Positions 1,597-37,731 of a stretch of 64,000 nt of DNA are shown one piece after another. This DNA comes from Ohessyouella blattaphilus (lineage in GTDB: Bacteria > Bacillota > Clostridia > Lachnospirales > Lachnospiraceae): positions 62,001 through 126,000 of the forward strand of contig NZ_JAMXOC010000002.1 of NCBI RefSeq assembly GCF_024721265.1, read 5' to 3'. Position 1 is the stretch's first letter; every line of letters starts with the position of its first letter. A model generated the notes under the pieces. That model was not told where the DNA came from and did no database searches. It saw only the letters and a program-made list of their open reading frames with translations. The translations under genes were made by a program, and so were the position numbers.

Positions 1597-1625
1597 TTGA
1601 ATTGAAAATAAGTTTGTGGTAGAAT
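1597..1625 (+). promoter_or_regulatory. Candidate sigma-A promoter of tRNA-Leu
   Basis: TTGAAT (1597-1602), a 17-base spacer and TAGAAT (1620-1625). The spacing is ideal and the element directly precedes the tRNA. The predicted start near 1632 falls inside the dyad at 1628-1650. Confidence 0.55.
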
Positions 1626-1627
1626 AA

Positions 1628-1650
1628 ATCTTGGTCCGAGTGACCAAGAT
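1628..1650 (+). promoter_or_regulatory. Perfect 9-bp inverted repeat just upstream of tRNA-Leu
   Basis: ATCTTGGTC (1628-1636), loop CGAGT, GACCAAGAT (1642-1650). The dyad ends six bases before the tRNA and overlaps the predicted transcription start. It could be an operator or a leader hairpin involved in processing; there is no T-tract, so it is not a terminator. Confidence 0.5.
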
Positions 1651-1656
1651 TGCCAT

Positions 1657-1739
1657 GCGGATGTGGCGGAATGGCAGACGCACAAGACTCAAAATCTTGC
1701 GGTGGTGACATCGTGTGGGTTCAAGTCCCACCATCCGCA
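1657..1739 (+). tRNA. tRNA-Leu (anticodon CAA)
   Basis: An 83-base type II tRNA. The 7-bp acceptor GCGGATG pairs with CATCCGC, followed by discriminator A. Anticodon stem CAAGA/TCTTG encloses loop CTCAAAA, giving anticodon CAA (1690-1692), which reads the leucine codon UUG. A long variable arm and a T-arm with GTTCAAGTC are present. The 3' CCA is not encoded. Confidence 0.95.
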
Positions 1740-1746
1740 GTCAAAT

Positions 1747-1794
1747 AAGTTGCTAAAAACCTTGAATTTAAAGGGTTTGCGGCAACTTTTTTAT
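1747..1794 (+). terminator. Rho-independent terminator after tRNA-Leu
   Basis: Outer stem AAGTTGC (1747-1753) pairs with GCAACTT (1782-1788), with an inner AAACC/GGTTT-type stem, followed by a run of T. Confidence 0.7.
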
Positions 1795-1832
1795 TGTAAA
1801 AAAAAGAAAAGGAGCAAAAAAAGGGCAAATTA

Positions 1833-1861
1833 CTTAAGAATATAAGCAAAGGTGTCGATAT
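1833..1861 (+). promoter_or_regulatory. Candidate sigma-28 promoter of the flagellin-modification operon
   Basis: CTTAA (1833-1837), a 16-base spacer and GTCGATAT (1854-1861). It matches the element found before hag, cheA and fliD in this window. The predicted start near 1868 leaves a short leader to the ATG at 1897 and excludes the GTG at 1852 as a start codon. Confidence 0.6.
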
Positions 1862-1896
1862 TAAAGATATATTTTGTAATTAAAGGGGAGAAAAGA

Positions 1897-3474
1897 ATGC
1901 GTAGACACCAGCAGAAGCAACTTTTGGAATTGTGCCAGACATTAAAGGAAGCATATGAGGAGCTTGTTCGTTTGTTTGAAGCAAAGCAAATAGATGATAG
2001 TATGATTAACCTTCTGGCAGATTGCCAGAATTTTGCAATTAAAATGGGAGAGTACATCGAGTCTATTTGTGGAGAGGGGACACAGACAGTAGCGTTATTG
2101 ATAGAATGTTGCGAAGCGATTTACCAGTTTAGTCAAGAACCTTCAAAGACAATCCTTAAGGCCATTAGAAAACAGTTAATAGGAATAGAAAACAGCATTC
2201 GTAGCGAGCTGCAGCCAAATCACATGGAAGTTTTGTTTCTACCATATAAAGTATCAATGGCGGATTCATTACAAACCATTTGGGAGGCTTCAATGGCTAA
2301 TCCGCAATGTGAGACGTATGTATGCCCTATTCCTTATTATGATAAGCAGCCAGATGGTTCCCTGGGACAAATGCATTATGAAGGGGATTTGTATACGGAT
2401 GTTAAGATTACGGATTGGCAGGAATACGATATCCAGTCTCGGCACCCAGACATTATTTTTATTCATTCGCCTTATGACGATGGAAATCGAGTTACCAGTA
2501 TTCATCCCGATTACTACAGTGAAAAGCTAAAGGATTATACGGATTTGTTAGTGTATGTACCTTATTTTGTTACAGTTGGAGACGTTGCGAAGCATTTTTG
2601 CGTAACAAAAGGAACGGTGTATGCCGATAAGGTATTTGTTCAATCCGAAAGAGTAAGAGAGACATACGTTCGCGAGTTTACTGAGTTTGTAAATGAAAAT
2701 AATTACGGTGAAGCATTTGGAGTCCCAGAGGATAAATTTATCGCTCTTGGTAGTCCTAAATTTGATATTCTTGAAAATATTGATTTTAAAAATAAACCAC
2801 TTCCTTCTTCGTGGCAACAGTTAATTAAAGGAACGGGTAACAGAAATAAAAAGATCGTTCTCTATAATACTTCGGTTGGTGCTCACCTTAAAGGTGGCGA
2901 ACGGTATCTTAAAAAGTTACGTTCTGTTATTGAATTGTTTAACAAACGCGAGGATGTTGTGCTTTGGTGGCGACCTCATCCTTTAACAGGGGAAACGTAT
3001 AAAAGCATGCTTCCAGATTTATACGACGAATACCAAGAAATTGTCACGGAGTATTGTCAGGAAAAGAGAGGGATTTATGACGACACGCCAGATTCGTACC
3101 GAGCAATCCTCTGGTCAGATGCGTATTATGGAGATCACAGCGCCGTAGTTTCCCTGTATGGTTTGACAGGCAAGTTTATAATGTATCAAGATGTAAACCT
3201 TGTAAGTGATCAAAAAACTTATAGCTTCGAAGAATTTTTGGAGCGTAGTGCAAATCATTATCGGGAATCAGCAGTTCATGAAGATGATTTAACTATTGTT
3301 TCTGAGGACAGTACTTCGTGTCTTAATGGCTTGCTAGATTATTTAGTTCTACCAACATACTCGCAGACATACCAATTCTTTGCTGATAAAAAGAAAGAAT
3401 TGTTTTCGCTAATTGCAGTTTTTCCCAAGCCGAGTTGTGGGAGTACCATCTTAGAACGATGTATGGAGGGATAG
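1897..3474 (+). CDS. CDP-glycerol glycerophosphotransferase-family protein
   Basis: A 525-residue cytoplasmic protein of the family that moves a phospho-alcohol from a CDP donor to a glycan or teichoic acid. The C-terminal half carries the family pattern: GSPKFD near residue 283, RPHPL near 358 and YGDHSAV near 411. The N-terminal 110 residues are helical and specific to this protein. The ATG at 1897 is chosen because AGGGGAG lies six bases upstream; the frame also opens at a GTG at 1852, which has no ribosome site. One base separates its stop from the next start, so the two are translationally coupled. Next to flagellin and a GT2 gene, I infer transfer of a phosphate-linked group onto the flagellin glycan rather than teichoic acid synthesis. 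Confidence 0.75.
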   Translation: MRRHQQKQLLELCQTLKEAYEELVRLFEAKQIDDSMINLLADCQNFAIKMGEYIESICGEGTQTVALLIECCEAIYQFSQEPSKTILKAIRKQLIGIENSIRSELQPNHMEVLFLPYKVSMADSLQTIWEASMANPQCETYVCPIPYYDKQPDGSLGQMHYEGDLYTDVKITDWQEYDIQSRHPDIIFIHSPYDDGNRVTSIHPDYYSEKLKDYTDLLVYVPYFVTVGDVAKHFCVTKGTVYADKVFVQSERVRETYVREFTEFVNENNYGEAFGVPEDKFIALGSPKFDILENIDFKNKPLPSSWQQLIKGTGNRNKKIVLYNTSVGAHLKGGERYLKKLRSVIELFNKREDVVLWWRPHPLTGETYKSMLPDLYDEYQEIVTEYCQEKRGIYDDTPDSYRAILWSDAYYGDHSAVVSLYGLTGKFIMYQDVNLVSDQKTYSFEEFLERSANHYRESAVHEDDLTIVSEDSTSCLNGLLDYLVLPTYSQTYQFFADKKKELFSLIAVFPKPSCGSTILERCMEG

Positions 3475-3475
3475 A

Positions 3476-4420
3476 ATGAAAATAGTTACATTTGATGACA
3501 TCATTAAACTAAATATTGATCCCGTTACTTGTTTTCAGTGGGTTGAAGAGACAATTAAAAACAAGGAAAAGGCAACACTTCCGCCAAAGATTAGTTTACA
3601 GCCAAAAGAAGGAGTGTTTTGTAATGTTATGCCATGTTTTTTGAACAGCTCTTGGGGCGGAGTAAAGGTGGTTAATCGATATCCGGAAAGAAAGCCAAGC
3701 CTCGATAGTAAGATTTTACTCTTAAACATGGAATCAGGTGAGTTTCTTGCTCTTATGGATGGGAACTGGATTACGGCAATGCGAACAGGTGCAGTAGCAG
3801 CTCATTCCATTCTAAAGCTAGCTAGAAGAGAATTCTCAACAATAGCAATGCTTGGGTTAGGGAATACGGCGAGGGCAACTTTGCTAGTGCTTGCCTCCTT
3901 AATAGGTGATAAGAAAATACATGTTAAACTTTTGAAGTATAAAGAACAAGAAAAGGCTTTTGTGGAGAGGTTTGCAAATCATCCAAATCTTGAGTTTTCT
4001 TATATAGAAACCCAAGAGGAAGTGATAAAAGGATCAGAGGTAGTCGTTTCTTGTGTAACTCATTTTCAAAAAGACATATGTTCAGACGATTGCTTTGATG
4101 AGGGGGTATTAGTAGTTCCTGTACATACTCGAGGGTTTACAAATTGTGACTTGTTTTTTGACAAGGTGTATGCAGATGACTATGGACATGTTCATCATTT
4201 TCAGAATTTTGAGAAGTTTAAATATTTTGCTGAGATTCAGGAGCTAGTTAAGGGCAGAGCACGAGGACGGGAAAGTGATACAGAGAGGATATTAGCGTAT
4301 AACATTGGACTGGCGATTCATGATATTAATTATGCAGCCCACATCTATCAGATGATAATTCAAGAAGGAAATATTATGAATTTGAAATTAGGGGAACCGA
4401 TAGAAAAGTTTTGGATTTGA
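3476..4420 (+). CDS. Ornithine cyclodeaminase/mu-crystallin-family protein
   Basis: A 314-residue NAD(P)-dependent enzyme of the OCD/mu-crystallin superfamily. The N-terminal half has the substrate-side motifs KISLQP and the segment NWITAMRTGAVAA. The Rossmann half begins with MLGLGNTARAT, a GxGxxxR dinucleotide loop. The family includes ornithine cyclodeaminase, alanine dehydrogenase, ketimine reductases and the diaminopropionate enzyme SbnB, so the reaction cannot be fixed from sequence. Position between a CDP-alcohol phosphotransferase and a nucleotidyltransferase/aminotransferase suggests it makes or alters the amino-containing group added to flagellin. Translation is coupled to the upstream gene. 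The low-GC look is shared with its neighbours, judged by eye only. Confidence 0.75.
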   Translation: MKIVTFDDIIKLNIDPVTCFQWVEETIKNKEKATLPPKISLQPKEGVFCNVMPCFLNSSWGGVKVVNRYPERKPSLDSKILLLNMESGEFLALMDGNWITAMRTGAVAAHSILKLARREFSTIAMLGLGNTARATLLVLASLIGDKKIHVKLLKYKEQEKAFVERFANHPNLEFSYIETQEEVIKGSEVVVSCVTHFQKDICSDDCFDEGVLVVPVHTRGFTNCDLFFDKVYADDYGHVHHFQNFEKFKYFAEIQELVKGRARGRESDTERILAYNIGLAIHDINYAAHIYQMIIQEGNIMNLKLGEPIEKFWI

Positions 4421-4454
4421 GAAAATAGAGGAACAGTCTAGGGGGAGAAGGTTT

Positions 4455-6293
4455 ATGCAGGCAATTATATTGGCGGCAGGTATGGGGAAGCGTTTAAAGG
4501 ATTTAACTTATGATAATACTAAGTGTATGGTGAAAGTAAATGGTGTGACGATGATTGAACGGATGCTCAAGCAGTTGGATGAAAAGCATCTCTCGCGGAT
4601 TGTGATCGTTATTGGCTATGAAGGACAAAGGTTGATAGATTATATTTCCTCACTTGAGGTTAAGACGCCAATCGTATACGTTAATAATTCGCTCTATCAT
4701 AAGACTAACAATATTTATTCTTTGGCCTTGGCAAAGAGTTACCTTCAGGAAGAAGATACCTTGCTATTAGAGTCAGATTTGATTTTTGAAAACAGAGTAA
4801 TAGAAGCGCTTCTGGATGATCCGCGAGAGACCTTAGCCTTAGTTGATAAGTACGAGAGTTGGATGGACGGAACGTGTGTAAAGCTAGGAGATGATGATAG
4901 CATTGAAGCGTTTATTCCTGGTAAACAGTTTAAGTTTGCAGAAATTGGCGACTACTATAAAACGGTAAATATCTATAAGTTTAGTCAGAAGTTCTCGGCA
5001 AGTTTTTACGTTCCATTTCTTGAAGCGTATCAAGAAGCCTTAGGTGTAAATGAGTATTATGAACAGGTTTTGCGTGTTATTACGATGCTTGATTGTCCAG
5101 AAATCAAAGCAAAACGACTAAATGGACAACTTTGGTATGAAATCGATGATGTCCAGGATCTTGATATTGCTGAGTCGATGTTCGCTGTCGGTGAGCAGGA
5201 AAGAGTAACCAGACTACAAGAGCGCTATGGTGGTTATTGGCGTTATCCACAGCTACTAGATTTTTGTTATCTAGTAAATCCTTATTTCCCGCCACAGAGA
5301 TTGATGGATGAAATTAAAGCAAATTTTGAGAAATTGCTAACCCAATATCCTTCGGGGATGAAGGTGAATTCTCTTCTTGCGGCTAAAAGTTTTGGGGTGT
5401 GCTCAGATAATATTATCGTCGGAAATGGGGCTACGGAGCTAATTAAAGCTTGGATGAGTAGCTTAACAGGTAAAGTTGGAGTTGTACGCCCAACCTTTGA
5501 AGAGTACCCTCATCGTTACGATGGGGCTAAGCTGGTATGTTTTTGGCCTGACAATAATGACTATCGCTATGGTGTTAAGGATTTGATGAGGTTTTTTGAT
5601 GCGCATCCAATTGATAATCTTATCCTAATTAATCCAGATAATCCGTCTGGGAATTATATTCCGAAAGAAGATATGCTAAAGCTTCTTACTTGGACCAAGG
5701 AGAAGGCAATCAAGTTATTAGTAGATGAGTCATTCGTAGATTTTGCCGATGAAGAGGATGCAACACTTATTAAGAGAGAGATATTCGTTGCAAATCCACA
5801 TTTGTATGTTATGAAAAGTATTTCAAAGTCTTATGGAGTCCCAGGTTTGCGGTTAGGAGTGTTGGCATCAGGCGATATTAAAGGGATAAGCGAGCTTAAA
5901 AAGGATGTAGCTATCTGGAATATAAATTCATTTGCGGAATTTTATTTGCAGATAGAAGAGAAGTATCGGGGAGATTATTTGTTGGCGCTTGAGAAGTTTA
6001 GAATCGAACGAAGACGATTTGTACAGGAGCTAGAAACGATAGTTGGTCTTAGAGTGATTCCTTCTCAGGCAAACTATGTAATGGCAGAAATAACAGCAGA
6101 TATGTCAGCTACAGCCTTGACGAAGGCTTTATTAGTAGCAGATAATATTCTAATAAAGGATTTACGAGGGAAGTTGGATGGGGAAGAGAAACGGTATATT
6201 CGCGTGGCTATTAGAAATACTAACGATAATAATCGTCTGTTAAAGGCCTTACAAGCGAAGATAGGTGAAAGACATCTGTATGTAGCTAGTTAA
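4455..6293 (+). CDS. Fused nucleotidyltransferase / PLP class I-II aminotransferase (or decarboxylase)
   Basis: A 612-residue two-domain enzyme. Residues 1 to about 235 are a sugar-nucleotidyltransferase-like domain starting ILAAGMGKRL, with the downstream Lys and Asp pattern of LicC-type CTP transferases. From about 265 to the end is a fold-type I PLP domain resembling HisC and CobD: NPDNPSG, VDESFVDF and SISKSYGVPGLRLG, in which Lys458 is the predicted Schiff-base lysine. I infer that one domain builds an amino-alcohol or amino acid phosphate and the other activates it with CTP for the phosphotransferase encoded upstream. A strong AGGGGGAGAAGG site precedes the ATG. As I recall, a similar fusion lies in the Clostridioides difficile type A flagellin-modification locus. 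Confidence 0.75.
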   Translation: MQAIILAAGMGKRLKDLTYDNTKCMVKVNGVTMIERMLKQLDEKHLSRIVIVIGYEGQRLIDYISSLEVKTPIVYVNNSLYHKTNNIYSLALAKSYLQEEDTLLLESDLIFENRVIEALLDDPRETLALVDKYESWMDGTCVKLGDDDSIEAFIPGKQFKFAEIGDYYKTVNIYKFSQKFSASFYVPFLEAYQEALGVNEYYEQVLRVITMLDCPEIKAKRLNGQLWYEIDDVQDLDIAESMFAVGEQERVTRLQERYGGYWRYPQLLDFCYLVNPYFPPQRLMDEIKANFEKLLTQYPSGMKVNSLLAAKSFGVCSDNIIVGNGATELIKAWMSSLTGKVGVVRPTFEEYPHRYDGAKLVCFWPDNNDYRYGVKDLMRFFDAHPIDNLILINPDNPSGNYIPKEDMLKLLTWTKEKAIKLLVDESFVDFADEEDATLIKREIFVANPHLYVMKSISKSYGVPGLRLGVLASGDIKGISELKKDVAIWNINSFAEFYLQIEEKYRGDYLLALEKFRIERRRFVQELETIVGLRVIPSQANYVMAEITADMSATALTKALLVADNILIKDLRGKLDGEEKRYIRVAIRNTNDNNRLLKALQAKIGERHLYVAS

Positions 6294-6310
6294 TTGAACT
6301 AGCAGATATT

Positions 6311-6362
6311 CTAAAAAACTAGCATAGATGATTTAAAATAATCATCTATGCTAGTTTTTTAG
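6311..6362. terminator. Bidirectional terminator between convergent modification genes
   Basis: A perfect 23-bp stem (arms 6311-6333 and 6340-6362, loop of 6) with A-runs on the left and T-runs on the right, so it can stop transcription from both sides. The right arm contains the stop codon of the minus-strand glycosyltransferase gene. Confidence 0.9.
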
Positions 6363-7660
6363 TGAGTGTTATTCAAGAGGGTAAAGTCTTCTTTGGTCAT
6401 GCGATAACGAAAGGCCTTTTCTAAGGGAGAAATTCCTACGCTTTCGATACAGGTGAAGACGAGTATTCGGTCTTTGTAGTTGGAGAAGTCATAGATACTG
6501 CTAAGAATATTTAACACTTTTAAAGCACTGTTATCATCCTGAATTTCTCTACGAAGCAATTCTAATAGAATCATTAACGTTTTTGTATGATAGCGGTTTA
6601 TTTTCAAGGTAGCAATAGCATATTTAACGACACCTGGCGCATCCTTTTCTTGCTTGCAAAGAGTAAGGAGTATCAGGCACAAACCTTCCATATTTGAAGG
6701 GAGAACAATTGGTAAAATTCCATCGTAGGTCAGAAGTTTATCATAGGCTCTGGCGAAATAGCTTTTGGCCTTTGCTAAATCTTCTTGCTTACGATACCAG
6801 TTGCCTAAAAGAAAATCATAATCTGGATGAGAGGCATTCCAACTCATGCCAGTATGATAGATTTGAAGAAGTCTTTCTTCACTATCAGGAAGTGGAGAGT
6901 CAGTAAACTCTTGGAGTAGACATGTTTCCAGATATATACGTAGAGAAGGTAAAATTGTTTTGTAATTTACAGGTTCAAAAATTGCGGATAATATTGGATC
7001 AAGTTCTGCTACGAATCCATATCTTAAGGCGTCAGTTACGAAGTATACTTTAGCGTTGTAGTCGCTAGGTTTATCTTGAACAAGTTTTTTTAGCATCTCG
7101 GTATTTCGTCGACCTTTATCTTTGTCTTTTCGCTCAGAGGCAGAATACCCCGTGTGCATTATCGTAAAGCAATTATCAACATGTAAACCCTTGACTTTAC
7201 TATTATCAGAAGTGGAGAGATTTTCATGAATAAGCCCAGCGTATCTTAGTTTATCTTGGTTACGAAAAACTCGAACTTGTGATATTTTTGAAATTGGATC
7301 ATGGTTATCATCGAGATTTATCAAAGGGCTTGAAATGGCAACGAATTCACGAGATACAGAGGGGAGAAGCTTTTTAAGGTTATGTGCCTCCGCTTGAGTT
7401 TGCAGATACTCGTCGGCATCAAAAAAGATAATCCACTGACCTTTAGCCTTATCAATAGCAAAGTTCTTTGCTTTTGCAAAATCGTTTTCCCAAGGAATCT
7501 CAAAAACCGTTGCCCCTAAAGATTTGGCGATTTCCACCGTTTTATCGGTTGAGCCGGTATCTACTACGATCTGTTCCGATACAATGTCCTTGGCCCAAGT
7601 CAGAGCTCTTTCGATATTTTTTTCTTCGTTTTTTACAATCATGCACTGCGATATAAGCAT
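6359..7660 (-). CDS. GT2-family glycosyltransferase, probable flagellin glycosyltransferase
   Basis: A 433-residue protein. Residues 1 to about 200 form a GT-A family 2 domain: start ISQCMIVKNEEKNIERA, nucleotide-binding VDTGSTDKT and the metal-binding DAD within FFDADEYL. The C-terminal half is helical and repeat-like (TPR type), as in GT2 enzymes that glycosylate proteins. The ATG at 7660 is chosen because GGAAAGG lies eight bases upstream; an earlier in-frame ATG at 7684 lacks a ribosome site. It lies directly downstream of flagellin on the same strand, behind the hag terminator, with its own sigma-28-like promoter. In C. difficile the gene after fliC is the O-GlcNAc transferase for flagellin; I infer the same job here. 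Confidence 0.8.
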   Translation of the reverse strand: MLISQCMIVKNEEKNIERALTWAKDIVSEQIVVDTGSTDKTVEIAKSLGATVFEIPWENDFAKAKNFAIDKAKGQWIIFFDADEYLQTQAEAHNLKKLLPSVSREFVAISSPLINLDDNHDPISKISQVRVFRNQDKLRYAGLIHENLSTSDNSKVKGLHVDNCFTIMHTGYSASERKDKDKGRRNTEMLKKLVQDKPSDYNAKVYFVTDALRYGFVAELDPILSAIFEPVNYKTILPSLRIYLETCLLQEFTDSPLPDSEERLLQIYHTGMSWNASHPDYDFLLGNWYRKQEDLAKAKSYFARAYDKLLTYDGILPIVLPSNMEGLCLILLTLCKQEKDAPGVVKYAIATLKINRYHTKTLMILLELLRREIQDDNSALKVLNILSSIYDFSNYKDRILVFTCIESVGISPLEKAFRYRMTKEDFTLLNNTH

Positions 7661-7699
7661 ATTTAAATCCTTTCCATCATACAAATGTGTCTACTATTA

Positions 7700-7727
7700 T
7701 TATCGGCTACAAATTGGATTAGATAAG
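7700..7727 (-). promoter_or_regulatory. Candidate sigma-28 promoter of the GT2 gene
   Basis: On the minus strand: CTTAT (7723-7727), a 15-base spacer and GCCGATAA (7700-7707). The -10 element is the textbook sigma-28 octamer. It lies just after the hag terminator, so the glycosyltransferase need not depend on read-through. Confidence 0.75.
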
Positions 7728-7730
7728 AGT

Positions 7731-7768
7731 TAAAAAAAATACCTCATGGCTTTTTTTGCCATGAGGTA
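7731..7768 (-). terminator. Rho-independent terminator of hag
   Basis: An 11-bp perfect stem, TACCTCATGGC (7740-7750) against GCCATGAGGTA (7758-7768), with a run of T at 7732-7739 on the minus strand. Confidence 0.9.
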
Positions 7769-7786
7769 AAAGGGTAATTATAAAGA

Positions 7787-8629
7787 TTATTGCAATAGTT
7801 GAAGAACGCCCTGAGGAAGAGAGTTCGCTTGTGAAAGCATAGCCTGCGAAGATTGAATCAGGATATTGTTCTTCGTATAAGCCATCATTTCCTTAGCCAT
7901 ATCAACGTCACGAATACGACTTTCAGCAGCCGTCATGTTCTCAGCATTGACACTTAAGTTGTTAATGGTGTGTTCCATACGGTTCTGCAGCGCACCAAGA
8001 CCGGCTCTTTGAGTAGATACTTGATTAATTGAAGCTTTAATAACATCAATTGCTGCAGAGGCACCAGTCTGACTAGCAATAGTAATGGCATCTAGTTTAG
8101 CGTCAGTAACACCTAAGTCGGCAGTTTTCATACTATCCACTGTAACGGTGATCTGATTAAAGGTATCGGCGGTATCACCAACTTGTAAAGTAAGGCCATC
8201 AGCAGATAAAGAGCCATCTAGTAGTTTTTTACCATTAAAGTTTGTACTATCAGCAATACGGTTAATTTCACTTTTTAATGCAGTAACTTCGGCTTCCATG
8301 GCCTCTCTATCAACCTTATTTTCATAAGTACCATTGGCTGATTGAGTTGCAAGTTCTACCATACGATTAAGCATAGAGTGAACTTCTGTTAGAGAACCTT
8401 CCGCTGTCTGGATTAGAGAAACGGCATCCTGTGAGTTCTTTTGCGCGGTTTCAAGACCAGTGATTTGAGCTCTCATTTTCTCAGAGATAGCAAGACCGGC
8501 AGCGTCATCACCAGCGCGGTTGATGCGGTATCCTGAAGAAAGCTTTTCTAAGTTCTTGCCAACAGCAGAGTTGTTGTTTGTTAAGTTACGGTAAGAGTTG
8601 ATTGCAGTAATGTTGTGTTGAATTCTCAT
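7787..8629 (-). CDS. hag: Flagellin
   Basis: The 280-residue filament subunit, exported by the flagellar type III apparatus and polymerised under the FliD cap. The N-terminal D0/D1 region (IQHNITAINSYRNL, LEKLSSGYRINRAGDDAAGLAISE) and the C-terminal D1/D0 region ending LPQGVLQLLQ are fully conserved. The central part (about residues 140-190) is very short, so there is essentially no D2/D3 domain. It holds several Ser and Thr residues, plausible O-glycosylation sites. AAGGAGG (8638-8644) is a strong ribosome site. The roughly 127-base leader holds a GGA-bearing hairpin, a likely CsrA target. A sigma-28-like promoter lies upstream and a strong terminator downstream, so it is monocistronic. Confidence 0.97.
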   Translation of the reverse strand: MRIQHNITAINSYRNLTNNNSAVGKNLEKLSSGYRINRAGDDAAGLAISEKMRAQITGLETAQKNSQDAVSLIQTAEGSLTEVHSMLNRMVELATQSANGTYENKVDREAMEAEVTALKSEINRIADSTNFNGKKLLDGSLSADGLTLQVGDTADTFNQITVTVDSMKTADLGVTDAKLDAITIASQTGASAAIDVIKASINQVSTQRAGLGALQNRMEHTINNLSVNAENMTAAESRIRDVDMAKEMMAYTKNNILIQSSQAMLSQANSLPQGVLQLLQ

Positions 8630-8637
8630 AAATAATT

Positions 8638-8675
8638 CCTCCTTGAATTGTGTTCCCGGGAATTCCCTTTCCCGG
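8638..8675 (-). promoter_or_regulatory. hag leader: ribosome site plus hairpin with GGA in its loop (candidate CsrA sites)
   Basis: In the mRNA, CCGGGAA (8669-8675) pairs with TTCCCGG (8656-8662), leaving AGGGAA in the loop. Further GGA triplets follow, including the ribosome site AAGGAGG (8638-8644). A GGA in a hairpin loop plus one in the ribosome site is the arrangement CsrA uses on Bacillus subtilis hag; csrA and fliW are in this window. An overlapping alternative palindrome TTCCCGGGAA is also present. Confidence 0.5.
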
Positions 8676-8762
8676 AGTGTCAGTTTCTTAGTTACTTATT
8701 TTGTAGACGCGTCGTCCACGAATGAAGTGCTTTTGTTTATGCTTTATTCGTGTTCAAATAGA

Positions 8763-8791
8763 TTATCGTCTGGGGATTAGAAAACATAAGT
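8763..8791 (-). promoter_or_regulatory. Candidate sigma-28 promoter of hag
   Basis: On the minus strand: ACTTAT (8786-8791), a 15-base spacer and GACGATAA (8763-8770). Predicted start near 8756. Same element and spacing as before cheA and the chemoreceptor gene. Confidence 0.7.
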
Positions 8792-8799
8792 ATTTAAAT

Positions 8800-8854
8800 C
8801 TAAAAAAAATATAAACTCATGAAAACAGCCTATTTATAAGGGCTTCATGAGTTT
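8800..8854 (-). terminator. Terminator of the cheA-cheW-cheR-cheB operon
   Basis: An 11-bp stem, AAACTCATGAA (8813-8823) with TTCATGAGTTT (8844-8854), and an inner AGCC/GGCT pairing. A T-run follows on the minus strand (8802-8809). It ends a few bases before the hag promoter. Confidence 0.85.
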
Positions 8855-9433
8855 TTAGAGGCGATTGATGATTAGATTGGCAATGGAATCTAATGGTGCT
8901 TGGGTGCAAAGAGCACCTAGGTCGTGGGCGACCATAGGCATGCCGTAGACCACACTGGAGGCTTTGTCTTGGCCGATGGTATAAGCGCCAGCTTTTTTCA
9001 TCTCTAGAAGACCTTTCGCGCCATCGCTCCCCATACCGGTTAGAATGACACCAAGAGCATTTGGACCGGCGTATTTAGCCACAGAGTGGAAGAGGACGTC
9101 GACAGAGGGTCGATGACAGTTTACTTTTTCCTCGTCTAGAAGCCGTACGAAATAGCGGGGGCCAATCCGGACGATCTTCATATGGGTCTGGCCACCAGGC
9201 GCTACGAGGCACAAGCCGGGGGTAAGGCAGTCGCCATCACGGGCTTCTTTTACTTGAAAGTTACAGATTTTATCCAAACGCTGAGCATACATCTGGGTAA
9301 AACCCTCAGGCATATGCTGAGTAATTACTATTGCGGGAATTGCGGCTGGCAAGGCCTCTAATATCTTTACGGTGGCTTCCGTACCACCAGTAGAGGCGCC
9401 GATGGCGATTATTTCAAGATTGTTCTTAAACAT
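8855..9433 (-). CDS. cheB: CheB-type glutamate methylesterase without receiver domain
   Basis: Demethylates or deamidates chemoreceptor glutamates during adaptation. At 192 residues it consists only of the C-terminal methylesterase domain; the usual family member is about 350 residues with an N-terminal receiver. The catalytic triad is intact: Ser14 in GASTGG, His40 in QHMP and Asp137 in GMGSDG. The ATG at 9433 is chosen because GTGAGG precedes it; an in-frame GTG at 9448 lies within that site. With no receiver, CheA cannot activate it by phosphorylation in the usual way, so it should be constitutive or controlled otherwise. It is the last gene of the cheA operon, 30 bases after cheR. Confidence 0.88.
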   Translation of the reverse strand: MFKNNLEIIAIGASTGGTEATVKILEALPAAIPAIVITQHMPEGFTQMYAQRLDKICNFQVKEARDGDCLTPGLCLVAPGGQTHMKIVRIGPRYFVRLLDEEKVNCHRPSVDVLFHSVAKYAGPNALGVILTGMGSDGAKGLLEMKKAGAYTIGQDKASSVVYGMPMVAHDLGALCTQAPLDSIANLIINRL

Positions 9434-36942: not shown

Positions 36943-37731
36943 ATGTTGGATTATACAAATGAAGAATTATTAGTCAGGTATCGACTTACAGGCGATATCA
37001 AGATCAAAAAAGAGTTAACCATGCGTTATCTCTATATTGTACGAAGTATTGCCATTCAAATGCGAGATGTCTTTGCCGGGTTTGCTCAATTAGATGACAT
37101 TATTAACGAAGGAGTCATTGTTCTGATGGGAGCTATCGATAAATTCGATGAGTCTAAGAATGCGAAATTTGAAACGTATGTTTCAAAACGAATCCGGGGC
37201 ATGGTGATTGACCTAGCAAGAAAGCAAGACTGGGTTCCGCGGGGACTGAGAAAAAGTTTGCGTGATCTTGAAAGAGAGAGAAATACGTTTTTTGCGGATT
37301 ACGGTAGGGAACCGACGATAACAGAGCTGGCGGATATTCTCGAGATGCCGGAGGATAAGTTAATCAGCGTAATGGGAAAAGAAAATCTTTCAGCAATACT
37401 ATCCTTAGATATGGTGCTTGAGGAAACCGCGGATAATTTTTCCCGAACTCAAGTTGCTTCAACAAATCGTTTTGAGCAACCAGAGGCAAGTCTTCTTGAT
37501 AATGAATTAAAAGAGATGCTCAAACAAGGAATTACGTCTTTAAAGGAGGCGGAACAGCTAGTTGTTTCTCTCTATTATGAAGAGGAACTAAACATGAAGC
37601 AGATAGCGGAGGTGATTGGAGTGAGTGAGCCGCGGGTATCACAAATTCACGCAAAAGCTATTAATAAATTGAAAGAGTATATGGTTAATAGGAAGCAGAT
37701 GAGGAGGGAATATGTTTCAGGGATTTTATAA
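36943..37731 (+). CDS. fliA: Flagellar sigma factor sigma-28 (FliA/SigD)
   Basis: A 262-residue sigma-70-family factor of the FliA/WhiG group. Region 2 holds INEGVIVLMGAIDKFDES and FETYVSKRIRGMVIDLARKQDW, with the group's VPRGLRK. Region 3 is EPTITELADILE. The region 4 helix-turn-helix is MKQIAEVIGVSEPRVSQIHA. It is expected to read the repeated [C/G]TTA[A/T]-N15/16-GNCGATA[A/T] elements of this window and to be held by FlgM (49400). Its end overlaps the next rod gene by 20 bases. In B. subtilis terms it is sigD. Confidence 0.95.
   Translation: MLDYTNEELLVRYRLTGDIKIKKELTMRYLYIVRSIAIQMRDVFAGFAQLDDIINEGVIVLMGAIDKFDESKNAKFETYVSKRIRGMVIDLARKQDWVPRGLRKSLRDLERERNTFFADYGREPTITELADILEMPEDKLISVMGKENLSAILSLDMVLEETADNFSRTQVASTNRFEQPEASLLDNELKEMLKQGITSLKEAEQLVVSLYYEEELNMKQIAEVIGVSEPRVSQIHAKAINKLKEYMVNRKQMRREYVSGIL

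Follow-up and report, generated by a model that had tools for sequence, protein, structure and literature searches.

The 64,000-nucleotide stretch of Ohessyouella blattaphilus DNA analysed here (the window; contig NZ_JAMXOC010000002.1, positions 62,001 to 126,000) contains an island of five genes. They code for a putative phosphotransferase (PT), a protein of the ornithine cyclodeaminase/mu-crystallin family (OCD), a fusion of a nucleotidyltransferase with a pyridoxal phosphate (PLP) enzyme (FUS), a GT2 glycosyltransferase (GT2) and flagellin. Judged from the sequences, this set probably attaches a sugar, and then a phosphate-linked amine with an unusual modification, to the flagella. It is likely that the flagellin carries a phosphate-linked amine made by the island genes. 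That OCD makes an N-carboxyalkyl amine is given, by analogy, a slightly better than even chance, and the complete reading, a flagellin-decoration island in which GT2 adds the sugar and the phospho-amine bears an opine-type N-carboxyalkyl group, an even one. The comparison with other bacteria suggests a function for OCD in such sets of genes. The five genes are as follows.

1897-3474, + strand: PT, a putative remote CDP-glycerol/CDP-ribitol-type phosphotransferase (GT-B) with an N-terminal helical domain, from family motifs, PF04464 matches in relatives and an AlphaFold2 (AF2) model
3476-4420, + strand: OCD, ornithine cyclodeaminase/mu-crystallin family (PF02423)
4455-6293, + strand: FUS, a CTP-transferase-like domain (residues about 1-240) fused to a CobD-like PLP domain (about 252-600), from Pfam and structure relatives
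6359-7660, - strand: GT2-TPR glycosyltransferase (PF00535, 68.6 bits)
7787-8629, - strand: flagellin, with the N and C flagellin domains in Pfam

A preliminary description of this DNA had placed PT, OCD, FUS and GT2 beside flagellin. The open reading frames (ORFs) are found at just those positions and on those strands, and the five-gene island is confirmed.

A predicted route from phosphoserine to flagellin

In the proposed mechanism, GT2 is predicted to add the first sugar to flagellin. The PLP half of FUS would decarboxylate O-phosphoserine to ethanolamine phosphate, or O-phosphothreonine to aminopropanol phosphate. From CTP, the N-terminal half would transfer CMP to this amine phosphate, giving CDP-ethanolamine (or CDP-aminopropanol); the decarboxylation and the CMP transfer are both suggested by the families of the two domains. 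OCD would join the free amine to a 2-oxo acid, most simply pyruvate, and reduce the imine with NAD(P)H. The product would be N-(1-carboxyethyl)ethanolamine, an opine-type secondary amine, at the phosphate or the CDP level. PT would take the phospho-amine off CMP and pass it on to the flagellin-bound sugar, as its fold, motifs and flagellin linkage suggest. By our arithmetic the predicted residue on the sugar is C5H10NO5P, 195.030 Da, with 14.016 Da to be added for phosphothreonine and 58.005 Da for 2-oxoglutarate in place of pyruvate. The scheme put forward earlier, in which the PLP domain makes an amino-alcohol or amino acid phosphate, the first domain activates it with CTP and the phosphotransferase transfers it, is partly supported, and is refined here with CDP-ethanolamine and an opine-type OCD.

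The two halves of FUS are recognised by Pfam as NTP_transf (residues 2-123) and Aminotran_1_2 (residues 317-599). Residues 2-238 match the CTP:phosphocholine cytidylyltransferase 1jyk with an E-value of 4.4e-12, which upholds at the family level the CTP activation assigned earlier to this domain, and the same half also matches the fusion protein 6pd1 in its nucleotidyltransferase part. Among solved structures the PLP half comes nearest to 6oux (E 5.8e-46), followed by CobD 1lc5, and the names given to these two entries are threonine-phosphate decarboxylase(-like). Lys458, presumably the Schiff-base lysine, is conserved in 28 of the 29 aligned fusions. The entry 6oux corresponds to SMUL_1544. 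SMUL_1544 was described as distantly homologous to CobD, with ethanolamine phosphate as a possible product (PMC4585668), and Cj1436 is stated to decarboxylate phosphoserine (Ser-P) to ethanolamine phosphate (PMC12409886).

We therefore have good confidence, at the level of sequence families, that the PLP half of FUS is a decarboxylase, and the earlier claim that this half makes the amine agrees with its CobD-like relatives. A point on the other side is its score of 164.6 bits with the CobD model TIGR01140, which does not reach the equivalog cut-off of 290.55. The PLP half could instead be a HisC-like transaminase converting a ketone phosphate to serinol phosphate or another amine, with the remaining steps as proposed. 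The HisC model gives 132.3 bits, and in C. jejuni serinol phosphate is the product of Cj1437 (PMC12409886). However, the CobD model scores higher and the top two solved relatives are both named as decarboxylases, and we consider the transaminase unlikely.

The FUS fusion is found in 33 copies (E <= 1e-147) in 32 of 298 genomes of the host family. Twenty loci were fetched, 19 of them with FUS and one an OCD locus without it. The neighbours are glycosyltransferases, flippases and PF04464 proteins, with LicD-type genes in 8 of the 20, and FUS elsewhere sits in loci of the surface-polysaccharide type. CDP-ethanolamine is a reported substrate of one LicD-family transferase (PMC11982090). Octopine_DH (PF02317), which belongs to the opine dehydrogenases and to a Pfam family other than that of OCD, occurs in 33 of the 298 genomes and lies directly 3' of FUS in four loci (L096, L097, L102 and L105; two of the four were identified by Pfam). 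Its position beside FUS points to the opine kind of chemistry that is proposed here for OCD, but through another family.

As judged from sequence and model, PT is a remote relative of the PF04464/TagF proteins, the fold and motifs being common at the family level. PF04464 is matched by 12 of 20 aligned members of the PT family (best value 7e-9), the window protein not being among the 12. In a profile-profile comparison the family aligned with four PF04464-type proteins encoded near FUS or OCD, three of them PF04464-positive by Pfam and one (L101) grouped by sequence, at E 2.4e-6 and a probability of 88.9. The motifs GSPKFD, WRPHPL and SDAYYGDHS of PT are common to PF04464 proteins, and GSPK, RPHP and SD-x4-D-x-S stand in register in this alignment. 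In the AF2 model (pLDDT 80.8, pTM 0.74) a GT-B body is joined to an N-terminal helical domain, and the model matches TagF 3l7k with a Z-score of 15.9 (17% identity) and TarL 8va1 with 15.7. No credible relative came out of PDB sequence searches with PT or its profile. The CDP-type phosphotransferase proposed earlier is thus supported at the family level, and PT is predicted, from sequence and model, to be a CDP-amine:flagellin-glycan phosphotransferase.

Two results speak against this prediction: the window PT falls below the Pfam gathering score of PF04464, and the best structural matches of its model are UDP-GlcNAc 2-epimerases, with Z-scores up to 18.3. PT might be a sugar transferase or an epimerase-like protein, in which case no phosphodiester would be formed. 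Its GT-B fold and top matches would fit such a role, and so would the tandem PT copies in some genomes. However, the PF04464 matches and agreeing motifs of the family argue for a phosphotransferase, as does its occurrence in fusions with LicD and beside LicD and CTP transferases. The same double likeness, to TagF and to an epimerase, is reported for CD0244, a protein required for the type A flagellin group of Clostridioides difficile (PMC10714395). We regard a sugar transferase or epimerase as quite improbable.

A match to the predicted phosphotransferase PT (E <= 0.001) was found in 63 of the 298 genomes, the host included. Flagellin lies within 6 kb of PT relatives in 14 of 41 loci, or 14 of the 38 other genomes examined, in agreement at the family level with the flagellin setting claimed at first. 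This count is weakened by the non-random choice of the 41 loci: the best matches were taken first, and some others were included because they had tandem copies or an Octopine_DH close by. The gene order flagellin-GT2-PT is repeated in L204, and L226 contains flagellin, LicD, PT, a nucleotidyltransferase and a long LicD protein. The order in L213 is PT, LicD, a separate nucleotidyltransferase, LicD, Octopine_DH, a class I/II PLP enzyme resembling the PLP half of FUS, and LicD. PT is fused to LicD in five loci, as identified with private hidden Markov models (HMMs). Seven tandem genes in L214 (G177:C1:1296000-1315000) code for proteins of about 650-690 amino acid residues, each with a PT-family and a LicD domain, and this stretch carries no flagellin. 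The PT proteins of L196 and L200 have about 830-840 residues, with a C-terminal half weakly similar to PT among the matches listed, and likely contain two PT domains per chain. From the flagellin and CTP-transferase neighbours in the loci examined, the PT family belongs to a good extent to flagellin loci and CTP-transferase neighbourhoods. It would represent a family of flagellin-linked phosphotransferases in Lachnospiraceae-type genomes, beside several kinds of CTP transferase.

The OCD protein and the opine-type step

OCD matches PF02423 with 115.9 bits (gathering score 24 bits) and stays below the equivalog cut-offs for alanine dehydrogenase (TIGR02371, 93.2 against 409.15 bits) and SbnB (TIGR03944, 71.1 against 326.9 bits). 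Lys64, Arg103 and Asp225, which we take to be the catalytic residues of the OCD family, are identical in all five aligned sequences, those of the window protein and four close relatives. Enzymes of this family reduce or oxidise imines, and SbnB acts on an opine-like secondary amine.

A scan of named genomes yielded 274 OCD relatives, of which 80 were kept. In 78 of these OCD was called as an ORF; L140 and L172 (the latter carrying Octopine_DH), where it was not, were left out of the counts. Some of the 78 loci are near-identical pairs (L126/L127, L175/L179) and the counts are not independent. The labels LicD, CGPT, OCTDH, PT and NTase (nucleotidyltransferase) come from private HMMs or single seeds, with Pfam applied to selected proteins. 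Within 6 kb of OCD, FUS was found in 34 loci, aminoethylphosphonate genes in 3 and either an L115-like NTase or a choline-type kinase (the LicC/kinase type) in 10; of the remainder, 8 had a transferase only, 1 had flagellin (L141) and 22 had no recognised partner. What the partnered loci share is a group that is activated by CTP and bears a free amine.

In L115, OCD is followed by an NTase, a class V aminotransferase, a phosphoenolpyruvate mutase and a thiamine pyrophosphate enzyme, and the aminoethylphosphonate pathway looks complete. Because these four are present, OCD should be unneeded for making the amine there. Aminoethylphosphonate-type genes also lie beside OCD in L149 (by Pfam) and L150 (by similarity). 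This bears on a different role for OCD, that of an alanine-dehydrogenase-like reductive aminase supplying an amino acid such as phosphoserine to the PLP half, with plain phosphoethanolamine as the final group. The OCD family does include alanine dehydrogenases, as the TIGR02371 score recalls, although that score is below the cut-off. However, OCD also occurs beside the aminoethylphosphonate genes and in kinase/LicC-type loci, where an amino acid phosphate is unneeded, and OCD as a maker of phosphoserine is set back by these loci. The chemistry of the C. difficile type B cap, given below, is a further argument for the opine-type step, and the reductive aminase appears improbable.

In a class-wide sample of 392 genomes, 15 (host included) had an OCD match at E <= 1e-30, and 6 of the 14 others were inspected. 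FUS adjoins OCD in L251 and L255. In L252 and L254 OCD has, by Pfam, a class V aminotransferase and a protein with a fused cytidylyltransferase as companions, and L253 is similar by eye. L256 has LicD genes without FUS, and OCD itself was left uncalled by the ORF caller. No type B-like locus was found among these six. In the OCD tree, the window protein joins that of Bullifex porci (L113) with support of 92/91, a branch that is not starred. The three phosphonate loci fall in one clade with the LicC-type loci L119 and L129, and 31 of 75 inner branches are open.

Some single loci of the survey deserve description. On a short contig of Candidatus Colinaster scatohippi (L141:359-3430), a DUF3880/Glyco_trans_1_2 glycosyltransferase lies between OCD and flagellin. 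In L134 (1268-6660), as read by eye, OCD precedes a tandem run of three proteins that resemble each other (403-406 residues, signal-peptide-like starts) and a shorter one of 369 residues. A lone OCD stands amid housekeeping-type genes in L155, L157, L162 and L184 (by eye LepA, HtpG, FtsZ and SpoVT-like), with no amine partner nearby; the LepA of the L184 contig was confirmed by Pfam in its twin L094.

The opine-type step is proposed for OCD because of the neighbourhoods and because of the chemistry and genetics of C. difficile type B. A mutant of the OCD-family gene CDR20291_0246 is without the terminal flagellin cap, the role of the gene being left open by the authors (PMC5207246), and in this cap taurine is attached to alanine with an alkylated NH, according to nuclear magnetic resonance (NMR) (PMC5207245). 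In the present analysis we identify the moiety, from the structure so described, as the opine N-(1-carboxyethyl)taurine. We take this compound to be tauropine. If the sulfonate of this unit is exchanged for phosphate, N-(1-carboxyethyl)ethanolamine phosphate is obtained. N-[(R)-1-carboxyethyl]ethanolamine phosphate (R-Cet-EtnP), the same group as predicted for the island, is listed for Proteus O-polysaccharides (PMC9630907), but there it is found on O-antigen and not on flagellin. Somewhat short of even odds, the members of the OCD clade may be opine synthases for surface decoration that N-carboxyethylate 2-aminoethyl-X, where X is phosphate, phosphonate or, in a member of the wider family, sulfonate; the island would be the flagellin phosphate version. 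Among the titles and abstracts listed in searches of the open-licence PMC literature on Ser-P decarboxylase, CDP-ethanolamine, opine dehydrogenase, LicD and flagellin, none connects this chemistry with OCD.

Several observations weigh against the scheme. The analysis shows gene content, gene order, homology and neighbourhood counts, and OCD is likened to CDR20291_0246 by the published family name. Of the 22 OCD loci without a partner, some lie on short contigs or next to housekeeping genes. Seven of the 78 loci, and also L254, contain OCD together with Octopine_DH; in these eight loci either the two enzymes work in succession or one has a different task. OCD and flagellin gave no match in one congener genome, which as a single genome says little. 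Flagellin was near FUS in none of the 19 other FUS loci fetched and near OCD in 1 of 78, as would be expected if, as the preliminary description had considered, the neighbours were always teichoic acid genes; near PT, however, it was found in 14 of the 38 genomes. On contig C34 (567-3840, L236) the host itself carries a trio of LicD genes, which could use the CDP-amine instead, together with a nucleotidyltransferase that by eye is TarI-like. FUS and OCD might accordingly serve a surface polysaccharide, with the LicD trio as one possible route, while PT and GT2 alone act on flagellin and the proximity is accidental. This would suit the polysaccharide-type loci in which FUS and most partnered OCD relatives sit. 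However, PT, OCD and FUS form one tight operon inside a flagellar cluster and the LicD genes appear to have an NTase of their own, and we give the polysaccharide role little credence.

Comparison with known decorations

The flagellin loci of C. difficile type A (CD0240-CD0244) and Pseudomonas aeruginosa (PA1088-PA1091) resemble the island in several respects. All have a glycosyltransferase at flagellin and a nucleotidyltransferase likened to CTP:phosphocholine cytidylyltransferase. The TagF-like phosphotransferase CD0244 of type A has a possible counterpart in PT, which is TagF-like at the level of fold and family. A phosphate-linked amino group on the first sugar, predicted for the island, is also common to them. 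In type A the nucleotidyltransferase is CD0242, for which a model covered 97% of the sequence, CD0241 is ThrH-like and CD0243 is a methyltransferase (PMC10714395). In P. aeruginosa the group is N,N-dimethylthreonine (PMC11833859). The preliminary description had named a nucleotidyltransferase/aminotransferase for type A. This is not borne out by the text of PMC10714395 that was examined, which describes no PLP domain and from which the word "aminotransferase" is absent.

Unlike type A, the island has an OCD enzyme and a nucleotidyltransferase that carries a fused CobD-like PLP domain. A scan limited to the five island proteins found neither a ThrH/PSP-like protein (as CD0241) nor a methyltransferase (as CD0243). 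Identity with type A is rejected because the island lacks both of these defining genes; it would work like the type A modification but is not classed as a member of it. At the family level this agrees with the earlier view that the final group would be unlike that of type A.

The predicted group is an isomer of the N-methylthreonine phosphate that type A flagellin carries on GlcNAc. N-methylthreonine and N-(2-hydroxyethyl)alanine are both C5H11NO3, and by our arithmetic both phosphate-linked residues are C5H10NO5P, 195.030 Da. Intact mass therefore cannot separate the predicted group from that of type A. The type A assignment is not in doubt, because mass spectrometry and NMR were used to characterise it (PMC10714395). 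Flagellin groups assigned by mass alone could be misread between N-methylthreonine phosphate and its isomer.

C. difficile type B (CDR20291_0242-0247) shares with the island an OCD-family gene in the flagellin locus. The cap that depends on this gene carries an N-alkylated 2-aminoethyl acid, similar to the group predicted for the island. However, type B has taurine sulfonate in place of phosphate, a Fuc3N-Rha glycan, and FemAB-like and ATP-grasp genes, and the available parts of its published description mention no PLP fusion or CDP route. The CMP-2-aminoethylphosphonate (PntC) systems resemble the FUS loci in their nucleotidyl-activated aminoethyl group and LicD-like neighbours (PMC6697681), and OCD stands beside such genes in L115, L149 and L150. 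They differ in the C-P bond and in a class V aminotransferase in place of the CobD-like domain. If true, the present proposal would bring together the phosphate decoration of type A flagellin, the sulfonate decoration of type B, the phosphonate groups of cell surfaces and the chemistry of opines, and would give CDR20291_0246 a testable role.

Transcription and genomic setting

The five genes occupy the left end of the window, with the operon of PT, OCD and FUS facing GT2 and flagellin, and the window lies within a large flagellar cluster (its genes recognised by eye). Gaps of 1 nt between PT and OCD and of 34 nt between OCD and FUS indicate a tight + strand operon. FUS and GT2 are convergent and both end at a single perfect 23-bp hairpin. 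The other features of the region are the following.

1835-1861, + strand: sigma-28-like promoter candidate upstream of the PT-OCD-FUS operon, TAAG-N15-GTCGATAT, with the -10 element at 1854
7700-7726, - strand: sigma-28-like -10 element (GCCGATAA) upstream of GT2, with a weak -35 element
6311-6362: terminator-like bidirectional hairpin common to FUS and GT2, with 23-nt arms of 100% complementarity
36943-37731, + strand: sigma factor within the flagellar cluster, with sigma70 regions 2, 3 and 4 (neighbours recognised by eye)

The sigma factor is, by its context, likely FliA/sigma-28. An ad hoc consensus matrix served to score sigma-28-like sites over the 64 kb, and the scores were compared with those of five first-order random sequence pairs. 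The site upstream of PT has the highest score and ends 35 nt 5' of the start codon. Scores of at least 15 were reached by 17 real sites as against 2 to 14 random ones, and scores of at least 17 by 2 real as against 0 to 2 random ones. The PT-upstream site is weak evidence and could be due to chance, because random sequence of the same composition gave 0 to 2 sites of its class. Upstream of GT2 (7707) and of flagellin (8770) the -10 matches are good and the -35 matches poor. In the same scan neither OCD nor FUS has a sigma-28-like site of its own. The promoters that all these genes were first thought to share are accordingly at best weakly supported for three transcription units, but not for OCD and FUS individually.

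Flagellin and GT2 each give a single match in the host genome at E <= 0.001. A tRNA-Leu (CAA) gene at 1656-1740 lies directly upstream of the island. Insertion by way of this tRNA gene is not supported, there being no flanking direct repeat in 1600-9000. The G+C content of PT, OCD, FUS and GT2 is 0.37-0.39, compared with 0.434 for the remaining window, a hint that these four genes may have been acquired by transfer.

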